Shown here: positions 5,638-25,753 of the stretch, piece after piece
Layout of the letters: the number at the start of each line of letters is the position of its first letter
Numbering within the stretch: the first letter of the stretch is position 1
Source of the DNA: Dictyoglomus sp. NZ13-RE01
Lineage (GTDB): Bacteria > Dictyoglomota > Dictyoglomia > Dictyoglomales > Dictyoglomaceae
Reading direction: 5' to 3'
NCBI GenBank assembly: GCA_002878375.1
Contig: NIRF01000012.1
Coordinates: 1 to 40,356 of the forward strand
DNA: 40,356 nucleotides
Position numbers and translations under genes: made by a program
The notes under the pieces: generated by a model
Told to the model about the DNA's origin: nothing
Databases searched by the model: none
What the model saw: the letters and a program-made list of their open reading frames with translations, nothing else

Positions 5638-5647
5638 TAACTTAAAA

Positions 5648-5810
5648 AAGGTATAAGGTTCCCGAAAGGGATTAAAAGGGAAGTGCGGTGGAAGTCCGCC
5701 GCGGTCCCGCCACTGTGATGGGGAGCCTTCTCCATAATGCCACTGGGGAAATTTCCCTGGGAAGGCGGAGAGGGCGATGAACCAGAGCCAGGAGACCTGC
5801 CTTATACCTT
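5648..5810 (+). ncRNA. Cobalamin (AdoCbl) riboswitch
   Basis: The element is closed by a perfect 11-bp P1, AAGGTATAAGG (5648-5658) with CCTTATACCTT (5800-5810). It contains the conserved core GCCACTGTGATGGGGAG and the B12 box GAGCCAGGAGACCTGCC (5785-5801), which match the cobalamin riboswitch consensus. It precedes the B12 importer genes btuFCD. Together with the downstream terminator it should reduce importer expression when cobalamin is plentiful. Confidence 0.96.
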
Positions 5811-5818
5811 ATAAAGGG

Positions 5819-5911: not shown

Positions 5912-6802
5912 ATGAAAAGATCTTTAAGGATCTTATCTATCATTGTCCTATTACTTTTATGTATTAGTTTCTCAAAAACAAACTTTCCTATTGAGGTAAA
6001 GGATGATTTAGGAAGAGTTATAAAATTTTCACAAATTCCCAAAAGGATTGTTTCTTTAGCTCCCTCCTCTACAGAAATTTTATTCGCATTAGGGCTTGAT
6101 AAAGAGATTGTAGGTGTAACAGACTTTTGTGATTACCCAAAACAAGCTCAAACAAAAGAGAAAGTTGGAGGATTTAGCAATCCTAATGTTGAAAAAATAG
6201 TAAAATTAAATCCCGATCTTGTAGTTTTATATAAAAGCTTTCCTAAGGAGATATTCAACCAACTTACTCAACTATTACCAAATACCAATTTTATAGTGCT
6301 CGATCCCAAAAATTTTGAAGATGTATTAAATAATATTCTACTTTTAGGAAAGATTACAGGTAAAGAAACATCCGCTCTTAAAATTCATGGAAATATGTTA
6401 AGAAGATTAAAAGAGATAGAAAGAAAACTTACCTTTATAAAGCCCTCTAAAAAAGTTCTATTTTTGCTCTGGAATGATCCCTTTATTTCTGCATCACCAT
6501 CCACTTTTATAGGAGATTTGTTTAAAAAATTAAAAGTAATAAACATTGTGGAGAATGAAACTCCTGAGTACCCTATATTGAGTATTGAATATATTGTTAA
6601 CAAGAATCCAGATTATATAATAATTGGAGAAATGAGTGGAATAAATATAGATTCAATAATAAATAAACCTGAATTTTCAAGTATATCCGCCGTAAAAAAT
6701 AGAAAGGTCTATTATGTTAATGATGATTTAGTTTTTAGACCTGGACCAAGATTAATCGATGGCTTAGAAGCCCTATTTAGAATATTTTATCCTAATCTGT
6801 AA
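5912..6802 (+). CDS. btuF: Vitamin B12 ABC transporter substrate-binding protein
   Basis: 296 residues. An N-terminal hydrophobic signal (about residues 4-20) has no good lipobox, so the protein is probably periplasmic or tethered by its uncleaved signal. The class III binding-protein fold is shown by PKRIVSLAPSSTEILFALGL, IVGVTDFCDYP and the C-terminal GPRLIDGLEALFRIF. The start is supported by AAGGAGGTG seven bases before the ATG. It is the first gene behind the cobalamin riboswitch and is followed by the permease and the ATPase, which fixes cobalamin or a related corrinoid as the likely ligand. No cobalamin biosynthesis gene lies in the window, so uptake may matter for the corrinoid protein at 22853-23488 (inference). 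Confidence 0.92.
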   Translation: MKRSLRILSIIVLLLLCISFSKTNFPIEVKDDLGRVIKFSQIPKRIVSLAPSSTEILFALGLDKEIVGVTDFCDYPKQAQTKEKVGGFSNPNVEKIVKLNPDLVVLYKSFPKEIFNQLTQLLPNTNFIVLDPKNFEDVLNNILLLGKITGKETSALKIHGNMLRRLKEIERKLTFIKPSKKVLFLLWNDPFISASPSTFIGDLFKKLKVINIVENETPEYPILSIEYIVNKNPDYIIIGEMSGINIDSIINKPEFSSISAVKNRKVYYVNDDLVFRPGPRLIDGLEALFRIFYPNL

Positions 6803-6813
6803 TAAAATAATTA

Positions 6814-7749
6814 ATGGAAAGAAGAAAGGAATTATTACTGCTAATACTGATTTTGATTTTAGTCTTCTTCGTATCCATATGGACGGGAGGGGGGATTTCA
6901 AACACTAATATATTCTGGAATCTAAGACTGCCAAGAAGCTTATTAGTTATCTTGGTGGGAGGAAATTTGGCTATTTCAGGAGCCATCCTACAAGGATATT
7001 TTCATAATTTTCTCGCAGAACCTCATATTATCGGTATTTCTTCTGGAGCTGCCCTTGGAGCAACTATTTATTTTATTCTTGCAGGTGGCACATGGGAAAT
7101 TGATCCCCTATTGACACCCTGGATGTCCCTTTTAGGAGCTTTCTTTGTACTAATAATTCTGGTTTTTTGGAATAAAAAGTTTAAACTAAATTCTCAGCTT
7201 ATACTTCTTGGAGTTTCTCTTAATGCGTTACTTTCGTCTATTATCTCTTTTCTGCTTTTCTGGAATCAAAAGGTCTTTCAAGGTATATACTTTTGGATAC
7301 TTGGAGGGTTCAACGGTAAAGGGTGGAGACATTTAGAAATTACTTTTTTTTACTCTTTAATTGCTATTCCATGGGCATTTATTTGGAGGGATAAATTTAA
7401 TATACTATCTTTAAGCGAAGAAGAGGCTTATAGCTTAGGATTAGATGTTAGAAAATATGAAACATATTTATTAATATTGATCTCTCTTTTAATAGCTCCA
7501 TCTGTTGCAACATCTGGAATTATTGGCTTTATTGGACTAATATCTCCACATATTATGAGACTATGGAAAACTTCAGACTATAAATGGCTTATACCCTCAA
7601 GCTTTCTTGCAGGAGCTATAATATTAACTATCTCTGATATTGTTGCAAGAAATATATTCTATCCTTCAGAACTACCTATTGGCATCATTACCTCTTTTTT
7701 GGGAGTTCCCTTTTTTATCTATCTTTTAATGAGGAGTAAAAATGATTAG
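6814..7749 (+). CDS. btuC: Vitamin B12 ABC transporter permease
   Basis: 311 residues of the FecCD/BtuC family, with about ten membrane segments. Motifs include LRLPRSLLVILVGGNLAISG, the ISSGAALGA loop and SGIIGFIGLISPHIMR, which contacts the ATPase. It is slightly shorter than most family members, with a short N-terminus before the first membrane span. The gene follows btuF after 11 bases. There is no convincing Shine-Dalgarno sequence before its ATG, so translation may depend on coupling to btuF. It overlaps btuD by eight bases. Corrinoid specificity comes from the riboswitch rather than from the protein itself. Confidence 0.92.
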   Translation: MERRKELLLLILILILVFFVSIWTGGGISNTNIFWNLRLPRSLLVILVGGNLAISGAILQGYFHNFLAEPHIIGISSGAALGATIYFILAGGTWEIDPLLTPWMSLLGAFFVLIILVFWNKKFKLNSQLILLGVSLNALLSSIISFLLFWNQKVFQGIYFWILGGFNGKGWRHLEITFFYSLIAIPWAFIWRDKFNILSLSEEEAYSLGLDVRKYETYLLILISLLIAPSVATSGIIGFIGLISPHIMRLWKTSDYKWLIPSSFLAGAIILTISDIVARNIFYPSELPIGIITSFLGVPFFIYLLMRSKND

Positions 7750-8500
7750 AATAGAGAACTTAACGGCAGGATACAATTCTAACATTGTTATAAAAAATTT
7801 AAGCTGGAGTTCTCCAGAAAAGGGGTTTGTAGGAATTTTAGGACCAAATGGAGCAGGAAAAACTACTTTTTTAAGGATATTAATAAAATACTTACTACCA
7901 AAAGAAGGTTATGTTTTTATAAAAGGGAAAGAGATTAGAGAATATAAACAAAAAGATCTTGCAAAAATTGTAGCTTTTCTTCCTCAAAAAAGTATTCCAG
8001 ACCTATCATTTACCGTAGAAGAATATATTTCACTGGGTAGGTATCCATACTCTCGCTTTTGGTACTCTCTTAGCAGGAAAGATAAGGAAAAAATCCGCAA
8101 TATAATGGAAATTACTGAAACTATTAAACTTAAAGATAAAAAACTATTTCAGCTTTCAGGAGGAGAACAGCAAAGAGTAAACTTAGCAAGAGCCTTAATC
8201 CAAGAACCTAAAATATTATTATTGGACGAACCAACAAATAATTTAGACCCTTACTACCAAATATACTTTTTAGAATATATTAAGAAATTGGGGAAAGAAA
8301 TTCTTGTTATATCAAGTATTCATGATATAAATTTAGCCTCAATATATTCGGATTACATCATGTTTTTAAAAGATGGAACACTATATAAATATGGAGAAAA
8401 AGAAGAAGTTTTAACCCTTCAAAACCTAAAAAAAGTTTATAATTTATCCTTTATAGAAGTTACAACTCCAAAAGGAAAAATATTTTTACCAGTCAGGTAA
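7742..8500 (+). CDS. btuD: Vitamin B12 ABC transporter ATPase
   Basis: 252 residues. Walker A is GPNGAGKTT (34-42), the Q-loop is in FLPQKS, the signature is LSGGEQQR, Walker B is ILLLDEP, and the switch His lies in SSIHDINLAS. It is the FepC/BtuD type of ATPase that pairs with FecCD permeases. The start codon lies inside the end of btuC, with AGGAG five bases upstream, so the two are translationally coupled. It is the last gene of the riboswitch-controlled operon. Its 3' end overlaps the convergent membrane-protein gene (8486-9091) by 15 bases, with no terminator visible between them. Confidence 0.92.
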   Translation: MIRIENLTAGYNSNIVIKNLSWSSPEKGFVGILGPNGAGKTTFLRILIKYLLPKEGYVFIKGKEIREYKQKDLAKIVAFLPQKSIPDLSFTVEEYISLGRYPYSRFWYSLSRKDKEKIRNIMEITETIKLKDKKLFQLSGGEQQRVNLARALIQEPKILLLDEPTNNLDPYYQIYFLEYIKKLGKEILVISSIHDINLASIYSDYIMFLKDGTLYKYGEKEEVLTLQNLKKVYNLSFIEVTTPKGKIFLPVR

Positions 8501-13598: not shown

Positions 13599-14582
13599 AT
13601 GTTACATTATATTTTAAGAAGAATTTTATACATGATTCCCATGATGATTTTAATCTCTATATTAGTTTTTATCGTGATTCAACTTCCCCCAGGAGATTTT
13701 TTAACCTCTTATATTTCTCAACTTGCTACCAGTGGAGAATCTGTTGACCTGGAAACAATTCAGGCATTAAAGGCAAGATACGGCTTGGACAAACCTCTAT
13801 ATATGCAATATTTAATATGGATTTGGAATATGTTTCAAGGCGATTTTGGAAGATCACTACTTTGGAATAGACCTGTCAGTGAACTGATTGGAGAACGTCT
13901 TGCCTTAACATTTGTTGTTTCTCTTTTTACATTAATATTTATTTGGATCGTATCTTTTATTATTGGAGTGTATTCTGCCACACATCAATATTCAATCGGT
14001 GATTATACCTTTACATTATTAGGATATCTTGGTTTAGCTACCCCTAATTTCATGTTAGCTTTAATTATTCTTTGGCTTGCATATTCCTATACAGGAAAAA
14101 ACTTAGCAGGATTATTCTCCCCAGAATATATAAACGCACCATGGAGTTTTGCCAAGTTTGTTGATATGCTAAAGCACATTTGGGTCCCTGTAATAATAGT
14201 AGGAACAAGTGGGACAGCAGGATTAATTAGAACATTAAGAGCAAATCTTTTAGATGAATTAAATAAGGCTTATGTACTAGCAGCAAGAGCTAAAGGACTT
14301 CCAGAAAGAAAAGTAATATTTAAATATCCTTTAAGATTAGCGATGATTCCCTTTATAGGAAGTGTTGGTTGGTCCCTGCCATTTTTAGTCTCTGGTGCAG
14401 AAATTACTTCTATTGTTCTGAATCTACCAACATCAGGTCCTTTACTTTTAAGTGCTCTTCAGAACCAGGATATGTATCTTGCTGGAGCTTTCATACTATT
14501 TTTAAGTCTATTAACACTTTTAGGGACTCTCATTTCTGATATTCTTTTGGCTTGGGTAGATCCAAGAATTAGATTCGAGTAG
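13599..14582 (+). CDS. Opp/Dpp-type ABC permease, OppB-like
   Basis: 327 residues with six membrane segments. The N-terminal MLHYILRRILYMIPMMILIS and the LKARYGLDKPLYMQYLIW segment are typical of OppB/DppB proteins. The EAA loop, which contacts the ATPase, is in NKAYVLAARAKGLPERKVIFKY. AAAGGAGG lies six bases before the ATG. It is the first gene of an operon encoding a complete importer with the next four genes. Such transporters carry peptides in many bacteria, but in thermophiles such as Thermotoga a large group imports oligosaccharides, and the downstream GH67 gene points to xylan-derived oligosaccharides here. Confidence 0.9.
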   Translation: MLHYILRRILYMIPMMILISILVFIVIQLPPGDFLTSYISQLATSGESVDLETIQALKARYGLDKPLYMQYLIWIWNMFQGDFGRSLLWNRPVSELIGERLALTFVVSLFTLIFIWIVSFIIGVYSATHQYSIGDYTFTLLGYLGLATPNFMLALIILWLAYSYTGKNLAGLFSPEYINAPWSFAKFVDMLKHIWVPVIIVGTSGTAGLIRTLRANLLDELNKAYVLAARAKGLPERKVIFKYPLRLAMIPFIGSVGWSLPFLVSGAEITSIVLNLPTSGPLLLSALQNQDMYLAGAFILFLSLLTLLGTLISDILLAWVDPRIRFE

Positions 14583-14592
14583 GGGGTATATT

Positions 14593-15702
14593 ATGGAGGA
14601 AGAAATTAGATTAGTAGAGGAAGAAAGGATTTATGTCGCATCCCAATGGAAATTAATGTGGTGGAAATTTAGAAAACACAAAATGGCAATGATAAGCGTT
14701 GGTGTATTATTAGTTTTCTACTTGATTGCTATTTTTGCAGAATTTGTTGCCCCTTATGATCCTCATAAGTATGATGTTAGATATGTGCTTGCACCTCCCC
14801 AAAGAATTCATTTCTTTGATGAAACAGGTTTTCATTTTAGACCTTTTGTCTATGGATACAAATTAGAATTAGATCCAAATACTTTAAGGAGAATTTATAT
14901 TGTAGACAAAACTAAAAAGTATCCAATTTATTTCTTTACAGAAGGACCTGAATACAAATTACTGGGTATATTTAAAACTAATATACATCTTTTTGGAGTT
15001 AGAGAGGGACACATCTTTCTCTTTGGAACTGATAGCATGGGAAGGGATCTTTTTTCACGTATAGTTTACGGAACAAGAGTTTCAACAACAGTAGGACTAG
15101 TAGGCGTCTTTATTAGTTTCATCTTAGGGATAATTATTGGTGGTATCTCAGGATATTTTGGGGGCGTCATAGATTTAATAATTCAAAGGGTTATAGAAGT
15201 ACTAAGAAGCGTACCTACATTACCTCTATGGATGGCTCTTTCTGCAGCTCTTCCTCCTCATTGGGACCCAGTAAAGGTGTATTTTGGAATAACTATTATT
15301 TTATCATTAATTGGATGGACTGGACTTGCAAGAGATGTGAGAAGTAAATTTTTATCATTAAGAGAAGAAGATTTCGTTACAGCAGCAAGATTAGCAGGAT
15401 CTTCTGAGATAAGGATAATACTAAGACATTTAGTTCCTTCCTTCTTAAGCCATATTATAGCTTCTTTAACTTTAGCTATTCCTAATATGATTATAGGAGA
15501 GACATCCCTTAGTTTCTTAGGTCTTGGTATTAGACCCCCTGCTATTAGTTGGGGGGTTTTAATCCAAGATGCTCAAAATATTAGGACAGTAGCTCTTTCC
15601 CCCTGGTTATTGATTCCTTTCATTTTTGTTGTGATAGTAGTTCTCGCTTTTAATTTTGTGGGAGATGGCATGAGAGATGCTGCAGACCCATATGCTAAAT
15701 AA
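14593..15702 (+). CDS. Opp/Dpp-type ABC permease, OppC-like with periplasmic insert
   Basis: 369 residues, about 70-80 longer than standard OppC. After the first membrane span (about 33-51) and the usual FVAPYDPHKYD, an extra segment of roughly 80 residues (about 63-140; rich in Tyr, Phe, Lys) comes before the conserved LFGTDSMGRDLFSRIVYG. The EAA loop is EEDFVTAARLAGSSEIRIILRH in the cytoplasmic part, and five further spans follow. Comparable inserts occur in OppC-like subunits of sugar-type systems, as I recall. It probably faces the binding protein. It follows the OppB gene by 10 bases. Confidence 0.9.
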   Translation: MEEEIRLVEEERIYVASQWKLMWWKFRKHKMAMISVGVLLVFYLIAIFAEFVAPYDPHKYDVRYVLAPPQRIHFFDETGFHFRPFVYGYKLELDPNTLRRIYIVDKTKKYPIYFFTEGPEYKLLGIFKTNIHLFGVREGHIFLFGTDSMGRDLFSRIVYGTRVSTTVGLVGVFISFILGIIIGGISGYFGGVIDLIIQRVIEVLRSVPTLPLWMALSAALPPHWDPVKVYFGITIILSLIGWTGLARDVRSKFLSLREEDFVTAARLAGSSEIRIILRHLVPSFLSHIIASLTLAIPNMIIGETSLSFLGLGIRPPAISWGVLIQDAQNIRTVALSPWLLIPFIFVVIVVLAFNFVGDGMRDAADPYAK

Positions 15703-15714
15703 GGAGGAAGAAAT

Positions 15715-16707
15715 ATGAATAATAATAAATTGTTAGAAGTAAAAAACTTAAGGACATACTTTCTATTAGATGAGGGGACTGTAAAAGCAGTAGATGGAAT
15801 AAGTTTTGAGATAAACAAAGGTAAAACCCTTGGAATTATTGGAGAGTCTGGATGTGGAAAAAGTGTAACCGCCCTTTCTATCATGCGATTAACAGGACCA
15901 AAAAGCAAAATCGTAGAGGGAGAAATCATATACTATCCTGAGGATAAAGATAAACCTATTGATATTGCAAAACTTGATCCCTTAGGACCGGAAATGAGAA
16001 GTATTAGAGGTAAAGAAATTTCTATGATATTTCAAGAGCCAAGAGCATCTTTTTCTCCTGTGCATACCATAGGCGAACAAATTATAGAAGCCATTCAGCT
16101 TCATCAAAAATTAGATAAAAAAAGAGCAAGGGAAGCTGCAATTGAAATGCTAAGGGTTGTAGGAATCCCAAGACCTGAGCTCAGAATAGATGAATATCCT
16201 CACCAGCTTTCTGGTGGTTTATGCCAAAGAGCCATGATAGCAATGGCACTTTCTTGTAAGCCCCAACTTTTAATTGCAGATGAACCTACCACTAATTTGG
16301 ATGTTACAATCCAAGCTCAAATATTAGAACTTCTTAAGCAACTTCAAGAGTTATTTGGTATGGCAGTAATTATGATTACTCATAATTTAGGGGTTATTGC
16401 GGAGACTGCAGAAGATGTCATTGTCATGTATCTGGGAAAAATTGTAGAAAGCGCAAAAGTAGATGAACTCTTTGAAAATCCACTTCATCCTTATACAAGA
16501 GCTTTAATGGAATCAATTCCCCATATAGGACCAAAAAGAAGAAGATTGAAAGCTATAAAAGGAATAGTACCTGATCCTTACAATTTGCCTAATGGTTGTA
16601 CTTTCCATCCAAGATGTGAGTACGTAATGCCTGAATGTAAAGAAAACTTACCTGAATTGAAAGAAGTGAAACCAGGACATAAGGTAAGTTGCTTCTTATA
16701 TAAATAG
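15715..16707 (+). CDS. Opp/Dpp-type ABC ATPase, OppD-like
   Basis: 330 residues. Walker A is GESGCGKS, the Q-loop is [13 protein letters not shown], the signature is LSGGLCQR (a variant of the usual LSGGMRQR), Walker B is [12 protein letters not shown], and the switch is MITHNLG. The C-terminal oligopeptide-transporter domain ends with the Cys-rich [16 protein letters not shown], which in related ATPases binds an iron-sulfur cluster. AAGGAGG precedes the ATG. It should form a heterodimer with the OppF-like protein encoded next. Confidence 0.93.
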
Positions 16708-16724: not shown

Positions 16725-17744
16725 ATGCAAAATACAATTTTATTAGAAGTAAAAAACTTGAAAAAATATTTCCCTATAACAGAAGGATTTACAAGAAAAT
16801 TAGTAGGATATGTAAAGGCTGTTGATAATATAAGTTTTTATATAAAAGAGGGTGAAACTTTAGGACTCGTAGGAGAGTCAGGATGCGGAAAAACTACAAC
16901 GGGAAAGGTTATTCTCAGAGCTTATGATCCTACTGATGGAGATATTATTTTCTACCTTAATGGAAACCCTATAAATATAGCCAAAATCACAAATAAAGAA
17001 ATAAAGCCTCTAAGAAGATATATGCAGATGATATTTCAAGACCCATATACCTCCCTAAATCCAAGAATGACTATAAGGGATATTATAGGAGAACCTCTCT
17101 TAGTAAATAATTTAGCAAAAGGGAAAGACTTAGATGAGAAAGTAGCAGAACTAATGAAAAGAGTAGGATTAAGACCTGAATATATGAGAAGATATCCACA
17201 TGCCTTTAGTGGAGGACAAAGACAAAGAATAAGTATTGCAAGAGCCATAGCTTTAAATCCCAAGTTAATTGTTTGTGATGAACCTGTATCAGCCTTAGAT
17301 GTTTCTATACAAGCCCAAATACTCAATCTATTAAAAGACTTACAAGAGGAATTTCATCTTACATATCTTTTTATCTCTCATGATTTAGGGGTAGTAGAAC
17401 ATATATGTGATAGAGTAGCAGTAATGTATGTAGGGAAAATTGTAGAAGTAGCAAAAACCGAAGAATTATTTGAAAACCCAAAACATCCTTACACAGAAGC
17501 TCTTCTTTCCGCAGTACCTAAACCAGATCCAAAACAAAAAAGAAGGAGAATCTTGCTTAAAGGAGAAGTACCAGATCCATCTAATCCACCTTCAGGATGT
17601 GTTTTTCATACCCGTTGCAACTACGCAAAAGATATATGTAAGGAGGTGATGCCAGAATTAATAGAAATAGAAAAGGGACATTTTGTTGCTTGTCATCTTG
17701 CAGATAAATTAAGTCTGCAAGGTATTCCCATCTCCCCTAAATAA
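16725..17744 (+). CDS. Opp/Dpp-type ABC ATPase, OppF-like
   Basis: 339 residues. Walker A is GESGCGKTT, the Q-loop is [13 protein letters not shown], the signature is FSGGQRQR, Walker B is [12 protein letters not shown], and the switch is FISHDLG. The C-terminal domain contains [17 protein letters not shown], a Cys cluster matching that of the OppD-like partner. The gene lies 17 bases after the OppD-like gene with a GGGGGAAGG ribosome site. With the four other transporter genes it completes an importer. Confidence 0.93.
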
Positions 17745-17762: not shown

Positions 17763-19679
17763 ATGAGATTATTAAAGCTTGTCTCCCTTTTATTAGTCCT
17801 TCTATTAGTTTTTGGAAACAGCATAACTGCTCAAAAGAAATATAATGAAGCACCAATGCTTGCGGAACTTGTCAAGCAAGGAAAACTTCCTCCTGTAGAA
17901 CAAAGACTTCCAAAAAATCCTGTAGTAATTAAGCCTTTCGAAGAAATAGGAACATATGGAGGTACATGGAGAAGAGCATGGCTTGGAGCAGGAGATAGAT
18001 GGGGAATTGCTAAAATATCCTATGATGCATCCAATTTATTCCGCTGGAGTCCTGATGGTACTAAGGTAATTCCATGGTTAGTAGAAAAATATACTGTTTC
18101 TCCTGATGGTAAAGTATGGACATTTAAATTAAGAGAAGGTGCAAAATGGTCAGATGGCACTCCTTTTACCACTGATGACGTAATGTTCTGGTATGAAGAT
18201 GTAATATGTAATGAAGAATTAACTCCAACATTTCCCGGTTCGTTACTTTCAGGAGGAGAAAGAGCAAAATTTGAAAAAATTGATACTTACACATTCCGTG
18301 TAACATTCAAAGAACCAAATCCTCTATTCCTATACAACTTCCCAGCCCAAGGTTGGTTCATAGATAACTCAAAAGGCTCGTTGGGATACTATGCACCAAA
18401 ACATTATTTAATGCAATTCCATCCCAAGTATACCCCAAAGGAAAAAATAGAAGCTGAAGCCAAGAAAGCAGGATTTTCAAAATGGTATGAACTATTCCAA
18501 TTCAAGATTGATTATATTCAGAATCCAGATTTACCTACAATGGCACCATGGAAAGTAATAAGTAAAAGCCCTCAAGAACCTGTATACATCATGGAAAGAA
18601 ACCCATATTATATTGCAGTAGATCCTCAAGGAAATCAGTTACCATATATAGATAGAATAGCTCACTATTTAGTTAACGACGCAGAAATGATAAACATGAA
18701 AGCAATTGCAGGAGAAATAGATATGCAGGCAAGACACATGAGACTATCTAATTACACTCTATTTATGGAGAACAAAGACAAAGGTGGATATAGAGTATTA
18801 AAATGGAGATCTGGAGTAGGTGCAGATCCAGCCATATTCTTAAACCAAAATATAAAAGATCCTGTAAAAAGGAAGTTATTCCAAGATGTAAGGTTTAGAC
18901 AAGCTTTATCCCTTGCCATAAATAGAGATGAAATAAACAAAATGTTATATTTTGGCTTAGGTACGCCAATGCAAGCAGCAATTCCTAAAGGAGCTGCATA
19001 TTATGATGCTGCCTGGGAAAAAATGTATGCAGAATATAATCCAAAGAGAGCCATGCAGATCTTAGACGCTATGGGATTAAAGAAGGATAGTAGTGGATTT
19101 AGACTTGGACCTGATGGGAAACAAATTCAGCTTACCATTGAATTTACTACCTATCCAGGAAATGCTAATATTCAAGTCATAGAGCTAATAAAGAGCTATT
19201 GGGAAGCAATAGGAATAAAAACTGCTATTAAACAAATAGATCGAAGCTTATATACCACAAGATGTAATTCTGGTGATATTGAGATAGGAGTATGGGTAAT
19301 GGACCGTTGCTCTAACTTCATATTAAGTCCAGGAAGATTTCTTGGAACTATAACTGATGGACCATGGGCACCATTATATGCCCAATGGTATTCTTCAAAG
19401 GGTAAATCTGGAGAAGAACCAGCTGGAGATATAAGAAAAGTTTATGAATTATGGGATGAAATAGTTAAAACAGTGGATAAGGCTAAAAGAGATAGTCTAA
19501 TACGACAGCTTGTTTCCTTACATAAAAAGAATATTTGGATTATAGGAACGGTAGGAGCATTACCTCAGCTTGTAATAGTAAATAACAAGATGAGAAATGT
19601 ACCAGATGGTTTGATTTGGGATGACCCATTAAGATCAGAACTTAACTCATATCCAGAACAATTCTTCTTTAAACAGTAA
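17763..19679 (+). CDS. Extracellular solute-binding protein, family 5 (likely xylooligosaccharide)
   Basis: 638 residues, in the size range of the large sugar-binding members of family 5. A Sec signal peptide (about 1-23, ending ITAQ) has no lipobox Cys, so the mature protein should be free in a periplasm-like space. Family hallmarks are VWTFKLREGAKWSDGTPFTTDDV near residues 116-138 and VRFRQALSLAINRDEINKML in the middle. Aromatic residues are abundant, as in sugar-binding relatives. It is the last transporter gene. A strong hairpin after its stop probably keeps its mRNA abundant. The substrate is inferred from the GH67 neighbour: glucuronoxylan oligosaccharides or aldouronic acids rather than peptides. 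Confidence 0.9.
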   Translation: MRLLKLVSLLLVLLLVFGNSITAQKKYNEAPMLAELVKQGKLPPVEQRLPKNPVVIKPFEEIGTYGGTWRRAWLGAGDRWGIAKISYDASNLFRWSPDGTKVIPWLVEKYTVSPDGKVWTFKLREGAKWSDGTPFTTDDVMFWYEDVICNEELTPTFPGSLLSGGERAKFEKIDTYTFRVTFKEPNPLFLYNFPAQGWFIDNSKGSLGYYAPKHYLMQFHPKYTPKEKIEAEAKKAGFSKWYELFQFKIDYIQNPDLPTMAPWKVISKSPQEPVYIMERNPYYIAVDPQGNQLPYIDRIAHYLVNDAEMINMKAIAGEIDMQARHMRLSNYTLFMENKDKGGYRVLKWRSGVGADPAIFLNQNIKDPVKRKLFQDVRFRQALSLAINRDEINKMLYFGLGTPMQAAIPKGAAYYDAAWEKMYAEYNPKRAMQILDAMGLKKDSSGFRLGPDGKQIQLTIEFTTYPGNANIQVIELIKSYWEAIGIKTAIKQIDRSLYTTRCNSGDIEIGVWVMDRCSNFILSPGRFLGTITDGPWAPLYAQWYSSKGKSGEEPAGDIRKVYELWDEIVKTVDKAKRDSLIRQLVSLHKKNIWIIGTVGALPQLVIVNNKMRNVPDGLIWDDPLRSELNSYPEQFFFKQ

Positions 19680-19689
19680 AATTTAAAAT

Positions 19690-19718
19690 GAGGGGGAAAG
19701 TATTTAGCTTTCCCCCTC
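19690..19718 (+). terminator. Intercistronic hairpin after the binding-protein gene
   Basis: An 11-bp perfect stem, GAGGGGGAAAG (19690-19700) with CTTTCCCCCTC (19708-19718), encloses the 7-base loop TATTTAG. The tract after it is TAATATTT rather than a U-run. It probably acts as a 3' stabiliser or partial terminator that raises binding-protein mRNA over the enzymes downstream. Confidence 0.65.
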
Positions 19719-19748: not shown

Positions 19749-21764
19749 GTGAAAGGAAAACAAAATTATGATTTGTGCTGGCTAAATTATAGACCCATAA
19801 ATATTAGTGATGACTTAAAAGTGACCCTTAAACATTTAGTATTAATAAATGTAGATTCTAAAATAATAAGAGATGAATACAAAAAATTTTGTAGGAGTAG
19901 TTTTAATATAAATCCGCAATTCAAAAGTTCCATCTCAAATATGGATTCTTGCGTCATTTTAGGACTTATTAAAGATCTTAAGAATTTATTTCCTCATTTG
20001 AACTCTGTAGAATCTTCTCTAAAAATGGGAGGATTTTATATAACAAAAATTAGTAACCATCCGATGAAGATTCTAATCGTAGGAAGTGATAATATTTCCC
20101 TCCTTTATGCCCTTTTCAAATTTTTTGAGATATTAAGGATTAATAGTTCGTTAGATCTTAATATTATAGAAAATCCTAAACTTGATTTGAGATTACTCAA
20201 TCATTGGGATAACCTGGATGGAACTATAGAGAGAGGATATTCAGGTAAATCAGTATTTTTTAAAGATAACAAAATCATTATTAATGAGAGAACTTACGAT
20301 TATGCACGTCTTATTGCCTCTATAGGAATAAATGGTGTAGTTATTAACAATGTTAATGTAAAAAAGAATGAAATAGAATTAATAACCTCAAAATATCTTA
20401 AAAGGTTATCACAACTTGCTGAGGTTTTTAAAGATTATGGTATAAAAATATACCTCAGTATAAATTTTGCTTCACCAATATACCTTGGAAACCTGGAAAC
20501 TGCAGATCCCTTGGATAAAAGAGTACAAAACTGGTGGAAAGAAAAGGTAAAAGAAATTTATGAATTTATACCTAATTTTGGTGGGTTTTTAGTTAAGGCA
20601 GACTCAGAATTTAATCCTGGACCTTATGTTTATGGTAGAACTCATGCAGATGGAGCCAATATGCTATCAGAAGCTTTATCTCGGTACAATGGAATCGTAA
20701 TCTGGAGAGCCTTTGTATACAATTGTATGCAAGATTGGCGAGACTATAAAACAGATAGAGCAAAAGCTGCTTTTGAGAATTTCATGCCTTTAGATGGATC
20801 CTTTAATGATAATGTTTACCTACAAATAAAATTTGGTCCTATGGACTTTCAAGTTCGAGAGCCGGTATCTCCATTATTTGGTGCACTGAAGAAAACAAAT
20901 CAAATCTTAGAAATTCAAATAACTCAAGAATATACAGGTCAACAAATTCACCTATGTTACCTACCTACCTATTGGAAAGAAATTCTCAACTTTGATACTT
21001 ATGCAGAAGGAAAAAATTCTGAAGTTAAAAAAAGAATTAGAGGTATAGCTGGGGTCTCTAATATTGGTGATGATATAAATTGGACTGGACATGACTTAGC
21101 TCAGGCAAATTTATATGGATTTGGAAGACTTTCATGGAATCCTGATGAGGATGTAGAAAAAATTACAAAGGATTGGATTGTTCTAACTTTTGGAAAGAAA
21201 GAGAAGGTTATTAATAATATTTTTTACATGCTAATAAAGTCCCACAAAATATACGAAAAATATACTACTCCTTTTGGACTGGGTTGGATGGTGAATCCAG
21301 GACACCATTATGGTCCAAATCCTGAGGGGTATGAATACTCCCACTGGGGAACATACCATAGAGCAAACTATGAAGCTATAGGAGTAGATAGAACATCAAA
21401 AGGAACAGGTTTTACTCTACAATATAATTCTCCGTGGAGAGAAATATTCGATAATATAGAAACATGTCCAGAAGAACTACTACTATTTTTTCATAGAGTA
21501 AGATATGATTATAAGCTAAAATCAGGTAAAACTCTTTTACAATCTATCTATGACCTACATTTTGAAGGAGTAGAAGAGGCGGAGCTTCTTAGGGAGAAAT
21601 GGATAGAACTAAAAGATGAAATTGAAGATACAATTTTTCAAAGGGTATTAAATAGGTTAAATATGCAAATAGAGCATGCAAAAGAATGGAGAGATGTAAT
21701 AAATACTTATTTTTATAGAAAAACTGGGATTCCTGATGAAAAGGGAAGAAAAATATATCCATAA
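19749..21764 (+). CDS. aguA: GH67 alpha-glucuronidase
   Basis: 671 residues, normal for GH67. It removes (4-O-methyl)-glucuronic acid from the non-reducing end xylose of xylooligosaccharides. The general-acid Glu lies in [11 protein letters not shown] (E287). The two residues that activate water are D366 in [18 protein letters not shown] and E394 in ITQEYTGQQ, matching the conserved GH67 trio. There is no signal peptide, so it acts on imported oligosaccharides. The start is GTG, chosen because AAGGAGG lies seven bases upstream. It is in an operon with the importer before it and a UroD-like methyltransferase 18 bases after it. The N-terminal part diverges from typical family members more than the catalytic barrel does. 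Confidence 0.95.
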
Positions 21765-21782
21765 TTTTAGGAGGCTATAAAA

Positions 21783-22826
21783 ATGAAAGATAATGAATGG
21801 AAAATTTTAGTGGACTGTGCCAATTTAAAGGAACAAGAAAGAATTCCTATAGCTCTTATTGTGGATAGTCCATGGATACCAGGCTTTTTGGGTATTAAGC
21901 ATACTCAGTTTTATGCAATTCAAGAAGTATGGTTAAATGCCTATTTTACTATTAAAAAGCTATTTCCAGAAATTATATTTATACCAGATTTTTGGGTTGA
22001 ATTTGGCATGGCTCAAGAACCATCTGGCTTTGGTTGCAAAATTCAATTTAGCGAAAATCAAACTCCAAATATTAATCCAATTATTGAATCCGCAGATGAC
22101 TTAGGAGAATTTTTAAAAAGATGCAAAATCCCAAATCCAAAGACTGACGGACTAATGCCTATTGTTTTAGAGATTTATAAATATGTAGAACCAAAAATAA
22201 ATGAAAGAGGCGAAAAAATAAAAATTGTTGCCAGTAGAGGTCCCTGTGCAATAGCAAGCCACTTAATGGGAGTTACAGAATTTTTAGTTGCTGTTAAAGC
22301 CTATGAAGAAGAAGCCCAAAAACTATTAGAAATAACGACTCAACTTGTTATTGATTGGTTAACAGCTCAAATTGAATCATTACATGAGGTAGAAGGCATT
22401 TTAGTTTTAGATGATATTGTAGGATTCTTTTCAGAAAAGGATTATTTAGACTACATACATCCCCATCTGAAAAAGATTTTTTCTTCCTTCAATTTTCCAG
22501 TAAAAATGTACCACAATGATACAGATAATCCAGTGCACTATAAGTATATTCCAGAACTTGGAGTTAACATATTTAATTTCACCCATTTACAGGACATAAA
22601 TAAAGTCTATGAGCTTACAGAAGGAAAAGTATGTCTAATGGGCAATATTCCACCCCTTGATGTTCTTGCATTAGGAAGTGAAGAAGATGTAGAAAAAAGT
22701 GTAGAGAATTTGATAAAATCCTTTGGGAAAAAGAGGGGTTTTATATTATCTGCTGGTGGAGGAACATCTCCAGGAACTCCCGAAAAAAATATAAGAGCAA
22801 TGATTAGAAAAAGCCAAACAATATAG
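21783..22826 (+). CDS. UroD/MtaA-family corrinoid-type methyltransferase, atypical metal site
   Basis: 347 residues with the uroporphyrinogen decarboxylase fold (TIM barrel), as in MtaA, CmuA and related corrinoid methyltransferases. Visible family marks are VASRGPCAIASHLMG, VLDDIVGFFSEKDY, GNIPPLDVL and the C-terminal GTPEKNIRAMI. It lacks the N-terminal arginine pattern of true UroD enzymes, and no haem genes are near. The MtaA-type zinc ligands H-x-C...C are altered: the first is H244-N-D246 and the second position falls in SAGGGTSPGTP without a Cys. It lies directly after the GH67 gene in the same operon and is convergent with a corrinoid-protein gene. I infer a methyl transfer to or from that corrinoid protein, possibly from 4-O-methylglucuronate. 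A role as a plain decarboxylase is unlikely. Confidence 0.8.
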   Translation: MKDNEWKILVDCANLKEQERIPIALIVDSPWIPGFLGIKHTQFYAIQEVWLNAYFTIKKLFPEIIFIPDFWVEFGMAQEPSGFGCKIQFSENQTPNINPIIESADDLGEFLKRCKIPNPKTDGLMPIVLEIYKYVEPKINERGEKIKIVASRGPCAIASHLMGVTEFLVAVKAYEEEAQKLLEITTQLVIDWLTAQIESLHEVEGILVLDDIVGFFSEKDYLDYIHPHLKKIFSSFNFPVKMYHNDTDNPVHYKYIPELGVNIFNFTHLQDINKVYELTEGKVCLMGNIPPLDVLALGSEEDVEKSVENLIKSFGKKRGFILSAGGGTSPGTPEKNIRAMIRKSQTI

Positions 22827-22854
22827 GGAGCCCATAAAAGGGCTCCCTTTTTTT
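22826..22854 (+). terminator. Rho-independent terminator of the transporter-GH67-methyltransferase operon
   Basis: GGGAGCCC (22826-22833) pairs perfectly with GGGCTCCC (22840-22847) around ATAAAA and is followed by seven Ts. It begins on the last base of the methyltransferase stop codon and ends in the stop of the convergent corrinoid-protein gene. On the minus strand the trailing sequence is less T-rich, so its use in that direction is uncertain. Confidence 0.93.
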
Positions 22855-23488
22855 ATCTATTTAATAAGTTATTTACTAACGATACTGCGGAAACTGCATC
22901 TTCTCCATAACCATCCGCCCCTATCTCCAACGCAAAAGTATTAGTCACAGGCGCACCTCCTACAATTACTTTTACCTTACTTCTTAAACCTTCCCTTTCT
23001 AAAGCCTCTATAGTAAGCTTCATGTTTGGCATAGTAGTAGTAAGAAGCGCAGACATTCCCAAAATATCTGGTTTATGCAATTTAACAGCCTCCACAAATT
23101 TTTCTGGTGGAACATCCACTCCCAAATCAATTACTTGATAACCTGCTCCTTCTAACATCATAGCTACCAAATTTTTCCCAATATCATGTAAATCTCCTTT
23201 AACCGTTCCTATTACAATCTTCCCTTTTAATGGTAGTCCGCTTTTTACTAATAGTGGCTTTAAAAGTTCAAGTCCTCCCTGCATGGAACGTGCAGAGAGC
23301 AAAACTTCTGGAACAAAGTATTCTCCATTTTTCATTTTCTCCCCTACGATAGTCATTCCTACAATTAATCCCTTATTTAATATATCTTCTGGAGAAATGC
23401 CTTCTTTAATTGCTAACTCCACTAACTCTTTAACCTTTTTCCTATTTCCTTCAACAACTGCACTGATTAATTCATTAAAATCAAACAT
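22853..23488 (-). CDS. Corrinoid-binding methyltransferase protein (MtaC/MtbC-like)
   Basis: 211 residues. The N-terminal B12-binding helical cap (about 1-85) is followed by a Rossmann B12-binding domain. The cobalt-ligating motif GDLHDIGKN has D99, H101 and G104; SALLTTT (146-152) and VIVGGAPV (175-181) complete the base-off/His-on site. The size and two-domain layout match the small corrinoid proteins of methanol, methylamine and O-demethylase systems rather than methionine synthase. AGGAGGG lies four bases before the ATG. It sits nine bases after the GH3 glycosidase gene in one operon and converges with the UroD-like methyltransferase, its most likely partner. The reductive activator and the second methyltransferase such systems need are not in the window. 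Confidence 0.93.
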   Translation of the reverse strand: MFDFNELISAVVEGNRKKVKELVELAIKEGISPEDILNKGLIVGMTIVGEKMKNGEYFVPEVLLSARSMQGGLELLKPLLVKSGLPLKGKIVIGTVKGDLHDIGKNLVAMMLEGAGYQVIDLGVDVPPEKFVEAVKLHKPDILGMSALLTTTMPNMKLTIEALEREGLRSKVKVIVGGAPVTNTFALEIGADGYGEDAVSAVSLVNNLLNR

Positions 23489-23497
23489 AGATCCCTC

Positions 23498-25753
23498 CTA
23501 TTCAACAAAAACATCGCTGAAGTATTTTCTATCCTTAGTTATAACTTTTGTCTCTGTGACTTCAAATCTATCACTTAATCTTATGTCTTCAGAGGAACTT
23601 CCAATGAATACTTCAAATACTCCAGCTTCTACAATAAACCTCATAAACTCATCATAAAAGGCAAGTTGTTCTGGATATAATCTAAAAGTGATCCTCTTCT
23701 TCTCTCCAGATTTTAGAAATACCTTTTTAAAGCCTTTTAACTCCTTTACTGGTCTTTCTAAACTTGCCCATTCATCATGAATATATAATTGAACTACTTC
23801 TTCTCCATCATATTTTCCTGTATTTTTTATATCAAAGCTTATATCTACAAAACCTGTAGGAGAAACTTTCTCTGGACTTATCTGAAGATTTGAATACTCA
23901 AAAGTTGTATAACTTAGTCCATGACCAAATGGGAATAGAGGTTTAGTATCTAATGTTATATACTCACTAAAGGCAGAGGGTTTTCTATTATAATAAACGG
24001 GGATCTGCCCTACTTCTACAGGAACTGATATTGGGAGTTTTGCGGAAGGATTATAATCGCCGAAAATTATGTCAGAAATAGCATTTCCTCCCTCTTCACC
24101 TGGATACCAGGCTTCTAAAATCGCAGGAATGTTTTCCTTTGCCCATTTTATAGTGAGAGGTCTTCCATTAATTAGAACTAAAACAATAGGTTTTCCTGTA
24201 GAATGTAATAATCTTAATAATTCTTCTTGACGTCCTGATAAATTTAAATCTGATCTATCATTTCCTTCTCCTGAGATTCCCCTCTTAAATAAACCACTTC
24301 TCTCTCCAAGAGCTACAATAACAACATCAGAACTCTTAGCCAAATTAATAGCTTTCTCAAACTCTTCAAAATCCCCTACAATGTCACAACCTTTTACATA
24401 CTCAACTTCCACATTATTTCCTACTTTATTTTTAATTCCTTCAAACAAAGTAACAGTATCTACTACCACTGATGCATCACTTAATTCTCCTCCTTCAGTA
24501 ATAGAAGGCATATGAGCTGAAAAACTGTAATCTCCATGCATACAAATTTTGCTATTGCCATTTGGACCTATTATTGCAATTTTCTTTAGTTTAGATTTAT
24601 CTAATGGTAATAATCCATCATTCTTCAGCAAAACTATAGATCTTCTCGCTACCTCTAAAGAAAAGTCTCTATGCTCTTTGCTATTAATAATGTTAATTTT
24701 TGAAGTGTCTGTTAAATAATTATCAAATAAACCCAATAAGAATTTAGCTCTTAAAACCCTCTCTACGGCCCTATCAATAACCTCCATAGAAATTAAACCT
24801 TCCTTTACTGCCTGAATTAATGGTTCTCCATAACAGTTAATATTAGGAAGTTCAATATCTATACCAGCTTCCAATGCTTTAATGGCAGCCTCTTTTAAAT
24901 CCTTAGCAGTTTTACGGAATGTATGAAGCATCTCAATTGCTATATAATCTGAGACTACAAATCCTTTAAAGCCCCATTCCTCTCGTAAAATTTTTGTGAG
25001 AAGAAATTTAGATTGAGCGCATGGAACTCCATCAATCTCATGATATGCATTCATTAGAGACTGAGAACCTGCCTCCCTTATTGCAACCTCAAAGGGAAAT
25101 AAAAACACTTCTCTTAATTCTCTTTCTGATACTCTTGCAGGTCCTAAATTCCTTCCTCCCTCAGAAATGCCATATGCAGTAAAATGTTTCACAGTAGCTA
25201 TAATTCCCTCGCTTTGCAACCCCTTTACATAGGATGATGCCATTTTAGCAACCAAATATGGATCTTCTCCGAAGGTCTCTTCTGTTCTTCCCCATCTTGG
25301 ATCTCTGGGAATATCAAGAACTGGAGCTAATCCTTGATGTACCCCAACGGCTTTCATTTCCTTTCCAATAATAGAAGCAACTTTCTCTATCAATTCTGGT
25401 TCAAAAGTACTTGCTAAACCTATAGCTTGAGGAAAGACTGTTGTTCCTGGTGCCATAAAACCAGATAAACATTCCTCATGAATAATAGCTGGTATACCTA
25501 ATCTCGTTTCTTCTTTAAGAAACTTTTGTATTTCATTAGCAATTTCTATAGTCTTTTCAAAAGTCATATCTTTTTGCCCTGCTAACCTTGTTATTTGTCC
25601 TATTCCATTCTTTAAAAGCTCTCTTGCCTTTTCTCTTGAAAATTTACCATTCTCAATCAACGAAGTAGCAAAAACAGAAGTAAGTTGAGCAACTTTTTCT
25701 TCCAGGGTCATTTTTGAAATTATTTCTTTTATTTTAAACTCTTCTCTTTGCAT
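23498..25753 (-). CDS. GH3 beta-xylosidase/beta-glucosidase
   Basis: 751 residues with the classical three-part GH3 layout: TIM barrel (about 1-350), alpha/beta sandwich (about 370-600) and C-terminal fibronectin-III-like domain (about 660-735). The catalytic nucleophile is D269 in GFVVSDYIAIEML. Substrate-pocket motifs include DIPRDPRWGRTEETFGEDP and TVKHFTAYG. An acid/base Glu probably lies in the RSGLFKRGISGEGNDRSDL segment. There is no signal peptide, so it acts in the cytoplasm on imported oligosaccharides. Co-location with GH67 and an importer favours xylooligosaccharides, but beta-glucosidase activity cannot be excluded. The corrinoid-protein gene follows in the same operon. Confidence 0.92.
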   Translation of the reverse strand: MQREEFKIKEIISKMTLEEKVAQLTSVFATSLIENGKFSREKARELLKNGIGQITRLAGQKDMTFEKTIEIANEIQKFLKEETRLGIPAIIHEECLSGFMAPGTTVFPQAIGLASTFEPELIEKVASIIGKEMKAVGVHQGLAPVLDIPRDPRWGRTEETFGEDPYLVAKMASSYVKGLQSEGIIATVKHFTAYGISEGGRNLGPARVSERELREVFLFPFEVAIREAGSQSLMNAYHEIDGVPCAQSKFLLTKILREEWGFKGFVVSDYIAIEMLHTFRKTAKDLKEAAIKALEAGIDIELPNINCYGEPLIQAVKEGLISMEVIDRAVERVLRAKFLLGLFDNYLTDTSKINIINSKEHRDFSLEVARRSIVLLKNDGLLPLDKSKLKKIAIIGPNGNSKICMHGDYSFSAHMPSITEGGELSDASVVVDTVTLFEGIKNKVGNNVEVEYVKGCDIVGDFEEFEKAINLAKSSDVVIVALGERSGLFKRGISGEGNDRSDLNLSGRQEELLRLLHSTGKPIVLVLINGRPLTIKWAKENIPAILEAWYPGEEGGNAISDIIFGDYNPSAKLPISVPVEVGQIPVYYNRKPSAFSEYITLDTKPLFPFGHGLSYTTFEYSNLQISPEKVSPTGFVDISFDIKNTGKYDGEEVVQLYIHDEWASLERPVKELKGFKKVFLKSGEKKRITFRLYPEQLAFYDEFMRFIVEAGVFEVFIGSSSEDIRLSDRFEVTETKVITKDRKYFSDVFVE

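Follow-up and report, generated by a model that had tools for sequence, protein, structure and literature searches.

The aromatic O-demethylases (MtvB, OdmB, VdmB and the archaeal MtoB) combine a substrate-side methyltransferase of the URO-D superfamily (MT1), a small corrinoid protein, an ATP-dependent activase and an acceptor-side methyltransferase (MT2), and transfer an ether methyl group to Co(I) of the corrinoid (PMC13222342). The chloromethane methyltransferase CdmB (PDB 9rui) is likewise an MT1 of URO-D fold with a separate corrinoid protein, and CdmB and some URO-D O-demethylases function without zinc (PMC13222342). The superfamily also includes the MtaA/MtbA methylcobamide:coenzyme M (CoM) methyltransferases and the bacterial Mlp (MGC) proteins. 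A stretch of 40,356 nucleotides from the thermophilic, wood-sugar-consuming bacterium Dictyoglomus sp. NZ13-RE01 (assembly GCA_002878375.1, contig NIRF01000012.1; hereafter the window) carries a URO-D superfamily gene, here called UroD2, behind a GH67 alpha-glucuronidase gene, with a corrinoid protein gene facing it. UroD2 is considered the probable MT1 of an O-demethylase that depends on a corrinoid and acts on 4-O-methyl-D-glucuronate, the principal side-chain sugar of xylan from hardwood. The support for this reading is genomic throughout; that UroD2 is linked with the side chain of glucuronoxylan and with a corrinoid system is well supported by neighbourhoods conserved in several phyla. 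To our knowledge, neither a xylan locus with a demethylation branch nor the removal of the methyl group from 4-O-methylglucuronate by anaerobes has been described. Full-text literature searches on methylated sugars and corrinoids, with most subscription journals outside their coverage, returned no corrinoid demethylation of methylglucuronate and no such xylan locus.

Seven Dictyoglomota genomes were examined; UroD2 occurs in six of them, each time adjoining GH67, and the seventh is 86% complete. A UroD2 profile, first run on a sample of 386 genomes, detected close relatives outside the phylum, and a scan of 84,980 species genomes gave at least 564 UroD2-related stretches, the best 80 of which were kept, 78 of them from outside Dictyoglomota. 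The recorded hosts of these best relatives include Clostridia, Acidobacteria, Bacteroidota/Ignavibacteria, Atribacteria and Chloroflexi. The flanks of the 78 loci were found to contain GH67 (8), GH115 (4) or the glucuronate isomerase UxaC (6), i.e. 18/78, against none in 20 control windows taken from these genomes around their corrinoid or RACo genes. Five GH67 genes are no more than 300 bp away from UroD2 (P about 5e-12, assuming one GH67 in every genome, with 0.34 expected in the flanks). On the tree the pairing arose several times, GH67 adjacency requiring at least four changes on supported branches. The conserved neighbourhood beyond Dictyoglomus that the earlier note on this DNA had proposed to look for is thus present in several phyla.

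Individual loci add detail to this pattern. A xylan locus in G060 has the order GH10-kinase-GH3-GH116-GH67-UroD2, with GH67 and UroD2 overlapping; UroD2 occurs with a TRAP transporter and UxaC in G147, and beside UxaC, UxaE and a short-chain dehydrogenase/reductase in Chloroflexi. The transporter genes (solute-binding protein and OppBCDF) that precede UroD2 in Anaerolineae resemble those before the GH67 gene of the window; similar transporter genes stand beside UroD2 at the Anaerolineae/Thermoflexales loci L129, L141, L143, L145 and L156. The genetic partnership with a corrinoid protein and an activase by which an MT1 is recognised was found as operons in G229 (UroD2, corrinoid protein, RACo and homocysteine S-methyltransferase on one strand) and in G005 and G006, two genomes of the same genus as the window's, and as co-occurrence in most of 50 UroD2 genomes; RACo is present in at least 44 of the 50 as against 113 of 379 sampled genomes (P 2e-15). 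A separate UroD2 clade in Verrucomicrobia and Planctomycetes (L084-L094) has no GH67, GH115 or UxaC neighbours and some of its members stand with Gfo/Idh oxidoreductases, which probably reflects a different substrate or scattered genes.

The gene order within the window agrees with the earlier description of it. Coordinates and Pfam matches place UroD2 18 bases behind GH67 (21765-21782, with AGGAGG upstream of UroD2), and the corrinoid gene converges on UroD2 from an operon with GH3 (9-base gap), a strong hairpin with a T-run lying between the two units. The GH67 gene starts with GTG preceded by a GGAGGAG Shine-Dalgarno sequence. Its product passes the Pfam cut-offs for all three domains (GH67N/M/C, 38.6/500/320 bits), has the Geobacillus AguA entries 1k9d and 1mqp as nearest solved structures (E 2e-258) and has catalytic-acid motifs in common with AguA, ITQEYTGQQ among them. 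A homologue from D. turgidum, Dtur_1714, has been shown to be active on xylan and xylo-oligosaccharides (PMC5167688). The top NCBIfam match of the GH3 protein is a xylosidase/arabinosidase, with a score under the cut-off. The corrinoid protein carries PF02607 and PF02310, the D-x-H-x-x-G motif in the form GDLHDIG and the length of about 210 amino acids typical of its class. The label 'MtaC/MtbC-like' given to it earlier is a fair one, but none of the named NCBIfam models tested (MtaC, MtbC, MtgC, TIGR02370) reaches its cut-off (best MtgC_2, 259/370; TIGR02370 211.7/215.3 bits).

The assignment of UroD2 to a 'UroD/MtaA family' stands at the superfamily level (PF01208, 140.6 bits against a cut-off of 23.9) and fails at the family level, its scores being far under the cut-offs of all the named NCBIfam models (MtaA, MtbA, mtaA_cmuA and hemE; mtaA_cmuA 79.6/235, hemE 65/303 bits). 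The predicted structure (pLDDT 95.8) is closest to the methylcobalamin:CoM methyltransferase 4ay7 (template modelling scores 0.83/0.86) and also matches uroporphyrinogen decarboxylases. Thirty-two positions are invariant in 45 aligned UroD2 proteins, including D28, W31, E73, E79, R152, D210, D211, H244, N245 and D246, and G325-G327 are likewise invariant. In an alignment of the three URO-D types, the zinc ligands of methylcobamide:CoM methyltransferases (His-x-Cys ... Cys) are retained in UroD1 of the window's genome (G000), whereas UroD2 and UroD3 have His-x-Asp, lack the second Cys and have L/M/A-D-D and R-G-P motifs in common. In UroD2 the zinc site of MtaA, MtbA and Mlp is replaced by H-N-D and a G at the Cys positions, and because this site of the thiol methyltransferases is lost, UroD2 looks like a substrate-side enzyme; we infer that UroD1 is the thiol-side one. 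Since CdmB and certain URO-D O-demethylases are zinc-free, the loss is compatible with methyl transfer. The motif E-x14-E-x20-H, which we take to be the zinc motif of aromatic O-demethylases, did not fit the conserved UroD2 positions and was dropped.

The remaining parts of the system were sought in G000 (1.93 Mb, 99.99% complete) and its sister genomes. The two-protein 'pair' of the earlier note has to be replaced by a system with at least four parts that are split between contigs, as a RACo-type corrinoid activase and a second URO-D protein are encoded on another contig (contig 9), the activase gene directly after UroD1. On contig 10 (L008:5738-8623), the third URO-D gene, UroD3, is followed after 18 bases by a GH2 gene, the product of which scores 828 bits with the beta-glucuronidase equivalog model, above its cut-off of 544. 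G000 thus holds a second glucuronidase-URO-D pair, possibly for demethylation of a methyl-glucuronate of the arabinogalactan type. In sister species (L029:7756-11734, L030:1-8206), UroD3 is accompanied by genes for a zinc alcohol dehydrogenase and for a flavoprotein similar to fumarate reductase, to which L030 adds an oxidoreductase of the Gfo/Idh type and a transporter, probably of the tricarboxylate type; these neighbours suggest another methylated substrate. According to a published study, D. turgidum synthesises neither haem nor sirohaem nor corrinoid (PMC5167688), and therefore the URO-D genes do not serve haem synthesis and cobalamin must be imported; in the window, a cobalamin riboswitch (129 bits) precedes a BtuFCD-like operon. 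UroD2 as HemE was rejected on its hemE score and on the absence of tetrapyrrole synthesis in this member of the same phylum.

In G005 and G006 a single operon has the order OppDF, corrinoid protein, RACo, MtaB-like, GH67 and UroD2. Given the MtaB-like methanol:corrinoid methyltransferase (L025:3663-5081, L024:3611-5065; 565 bits in Pfam, under the NCBIfam cut-off), methanol may be a donor or a product in these two genomes. The other Dictyoglomota genus (g2) has its single corrinoid protein in an operon with RACo and UroD1, followed by DUF39-type homocysteine-biosynthesis and NIL/ferredoxin genes (L031:5345-10449, L032:4903-10010), with GH67-UroD2 elsewhere; this operon is possibly a corrinoid route to methionine in Dictyoglomus. 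Because the single corrinoid protein stands with UroD1 in one genus and with GH67-UroD2 in G005 and G006, one carrier probably serves both enzymes.

In the proposed route, xylan fragments would enter through the family-5 ATP-binding cassette (ABC) transporter and 4-O-methylglucuronate would be released inside the cell by GH67, as is known for the family. UroD2 may then bind the sugar acid and transfer the methyl group from it to the Co(I) corrinoid on the carrier protein encoded next to it, a step suggested by the conserved neighbourhoods and residues, and the glucuronate so formed would enter normal uronate metabolism. RACo would re-reduce any cobalt oxidised to Co(II), as expected from its family, and the cobalamin itself would be imported rather than made. 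A second methyltransferase would unload the carrier, the tentative candidates in G000 being its one homocysteine S-methyltransferase, a core MetE pair or UroD1, acting on homocysteine.

The methyl acceptor can be assigned only tentatively. The window's corrinoid protein is the only PF02607 protein found in G000, and since PF02607 is the corrinoid helical domain, the genome appears to be without MetH. Contig 6 (L177:2238-4246) encodes two short MetE-like proteins of 342 and 327 amino acids, of the core-MetE type of methionine synthase, near a DUF39-type homocysteine-biosynthesis gene, and MetF is clustered with formate-tetrahydrofolate ligase and FolD (the last two identified by reading of the sequence). 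As the core MetE pair is also present, it is less likely that the corrinoid protein serves methionine synthesis alone. A search of G000 for Pterin_bind (PF00809) matched only dihydropteroate synthase, MtrH (PF02007) not being searched; because of this, homocysteine fits weakly better than tetrahydrofolate as the acceptor in G000. Kountz and Balskus described clusters likewise without a folate methyltransferase and proposed methyl-sulfur roles for them (PMC10418091). In other UroD2 genomes the neighbours of the corrinoid gene vary: a homocysteine S-methyltransferase adjoins it in four Verrucomicrobia and is close by in Mariniphaga and, in two cases, in G060, while in Clostridia the neighbours are Pterin_bind proteins together with folate enzymes. 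The second half-reaction therefore seems to differ by lineage. Of the earlier proposal that the pair demethylates 4-O-methylglucuronate and passes the methyl group to a one-carbon carrier, the link between side chain and corrinoid is upheld by the neighbourhoods, while the assignment of the carrier stays tentative.

Several observations weigh against UroD2 being a corrinoid demethylase of 4-O-methylglucuronate. GH67, GH115 and UxaC are lacking in the examined flanks of 60 of the 78 relatives, many of them on short contigs, and more than one methyl ether or uronate may serve as substrate within the UroD2 family; the UxaE (tagaturonate epimerase) gene next to UroD2 in Chloroflexi would also suit a substrate of the galacturonate type. 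In G160 and in G423, a metagenome-assembled Bacillus genome with GH67-UroD2, the one corrinoid domain found was of the MetH type, no corrinoid partner was found in G396 and G352, and RACo was not found in G060, which has two corrinoid genes. The enrichment of RACo may partly reflect an anaerobic lifestyle, and the window's own corrinoid gene is convergent and outside the GH67 operon.

The UxaE neighbour, together with the many relatives that have Gfo/Idh oxidoreductases and no GH67 or GH115, would suit a corrinoid methyltransferase for another sugar acid or ether (4-O-methyl-galacturonate, an O-methylated aldouronic acid before hydrolysis, methyl-inositol etc.), with 4-O-methylglucuronate at most a side substrate. 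This is rather unlikely, as (4-O-methyl-)glucuronate is what enzymes of both GH67 and GH115 cleave off, and each of the two families is paired with UroD2 in separate clades, the window's own UroD2 being among the GH67-linked members. An MtaA-like, acceptor-side role, in which an MtaB-like or other MT1 loads the methyl group (e.g. from methanol), UroD2 unloads it to a thiol or folate and the xylan link is one of co-regulation only, is held to be unlikely. The MtaB-like gene inside the G005/G006 operon and the top solved match of UroD2 in fold and sequence, a methylcobalamin:CoM methyltransferase, speak for such an MT2; however, the zinc site kept by UroD1 is lost in UroD2, MtaB was not found in the window's genome or G001-G004 and none was seen near the relatives, and acceptor enzymes (homocysteine S-methyltransferase, Pterin_bind) stand beside the corrinoid gene in other genomes. 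That UroD2 works independently of corrinoid, as a URO-D-fold lyase or decarboxylase or a direct methyltransferase on glucuronate products, is very unlikely: non-corrinoid enzymes exist among the URO-D and MetE folds and a few UroD2 genomes are without a standalone corrinoid protein, but RACo and a corrinoid gene occur in the great majority of UroD2 genomes, and UroD2, corrinoid protein and RACo have operons in common in two lineages. That an unrelated methyltransferase came to lie beside GH67 by chance, the alternative offered in the earlier note and favoured by the separate, convergent unit of the corrinoid gene, is ruled out by the adjacency recurring across phyla in the survey (18/78 against 0/20; P about 5e-12) and retains a negligible probability.

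Features of the window, with positions counted from its first nucleotide
Feature	Coordinates	Strand	Basis or remark
Cobalamin riboswitch	5639..5818	+	Rfam RF00174, 129 bits, full length
BtuF-like periplasmic binding protein, probable cobalamin uptake	5912..6802	+	PF01497, 140 bits; first gene after riboswitch
BtuC-like permease	6814..7749	+	Open reading frame (ORF) by operon order; identity read from sequence
BtuD-like ATPase	7742..8500	+	ORF carrying ABC motifs
OppB-like permease, family-5 oligosaccharide/oligopeptide transporter	13599..14582	+	PF00528; similar genes beside UroD2 in Anaerolineae L129/L143/L145
OppC-like permease	14593..15702	+	ORF; similar neighbours in Anaerolineae L129/L143/L145
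OppD-like ATPase	15715..16707	+	ORF
OppF-like ATPase	16725..17744	+	ORF
Family-5 solute-binding protein	17763..19679	+	PF00496, 232 bits
Strong hairpin between transporter and GH67 (terminator, attenuator or RNA processing site)	19690..19718	+	12 pairs
GH67 alpha-glucuronidase	19749..21764	+	Three Pfam domains; motifs around known catalytic acids conserved
UroD2, URO-D superfamily methyltransferase, proposed 4-O-methyl-glucuronate:corrinoid methyltransferase (MT1)	21783..22826	+	PF01208
Hairpin and T-run separating convergent units; overlaps end of UroD2 stop codon	22825..22848	.	
Corrinoid (methyl-carrier) protein	22853..23488	-	PF02607 and PF02310
GH3 glycosidase, beta-xylosidase/arabinosidase-like; transcription unit common with corrinoid gene	23498..25753	-	

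Three small genes were also observed near the contig start (window:1111-2662), one with a 247-amino-acid product without a Pfam match.

That the pairing recurs across several phyla points to a so far undescribed way of using a plant sugar that is very common. Chances are about even that UroD2 is the founding member of a sugar-acid O-demethylase family that depends on cobalamin and is widespread among anaerobes from many phyla, by which the methyl group of hardwood-xylan 4-O-methylglucuronate (and perhaps of arabinogalactan, via UroD3) would reach homocysteine or folate one-carbon metabolism. If so, hemicellulose breakdown would be tied to vitamin B12 supply and one-carbon metabolism, a function would be provided for a large group of proteins now named 'uroporphyrinogen decarboxylase family', and corrinoid O-demethylation would be extended to carbohydrates, beyond aromatics and methanol.

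With the known GH67/GH115 glucuronoxylan loci, the UroD2 loci have in common GH67, GH10/GH3/GH43, a uronate isomerase and a transporter. The corrinoid-RACo-UroD1 operons of genus g2 are similar to the Type 1 mlp gene cluster (Mlp2 and Mlp3, corrinoid protein, activase), yet have one Mlp-like gene, and UroD2 is not Mlp-like; fold and superfamily are common to UroD2 and MtaA/MtbA and Mlp, the type to which UroD1 belongs, but UroD2 lacks their His-Cys-Cys zinc site and scores far under their family cut-offs. CdmB, similar in the division of labour proposed for UroD2, is haloalkane-specific and distant from it in sequence (phmmer E 0.003). The aromatic O-demethylases act on methoxylated aromatics and deliver the methyl group to tetrahydrofolate or its archaeal counterpart, whereas UroD2 is tied to polysaccharide genes and no folate methyltransferase was found in G000 (MtrH not searched). 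The UroD2 system is likely to work in the manner of a corrinoid O-demethylase, a reading well supported by gene order.

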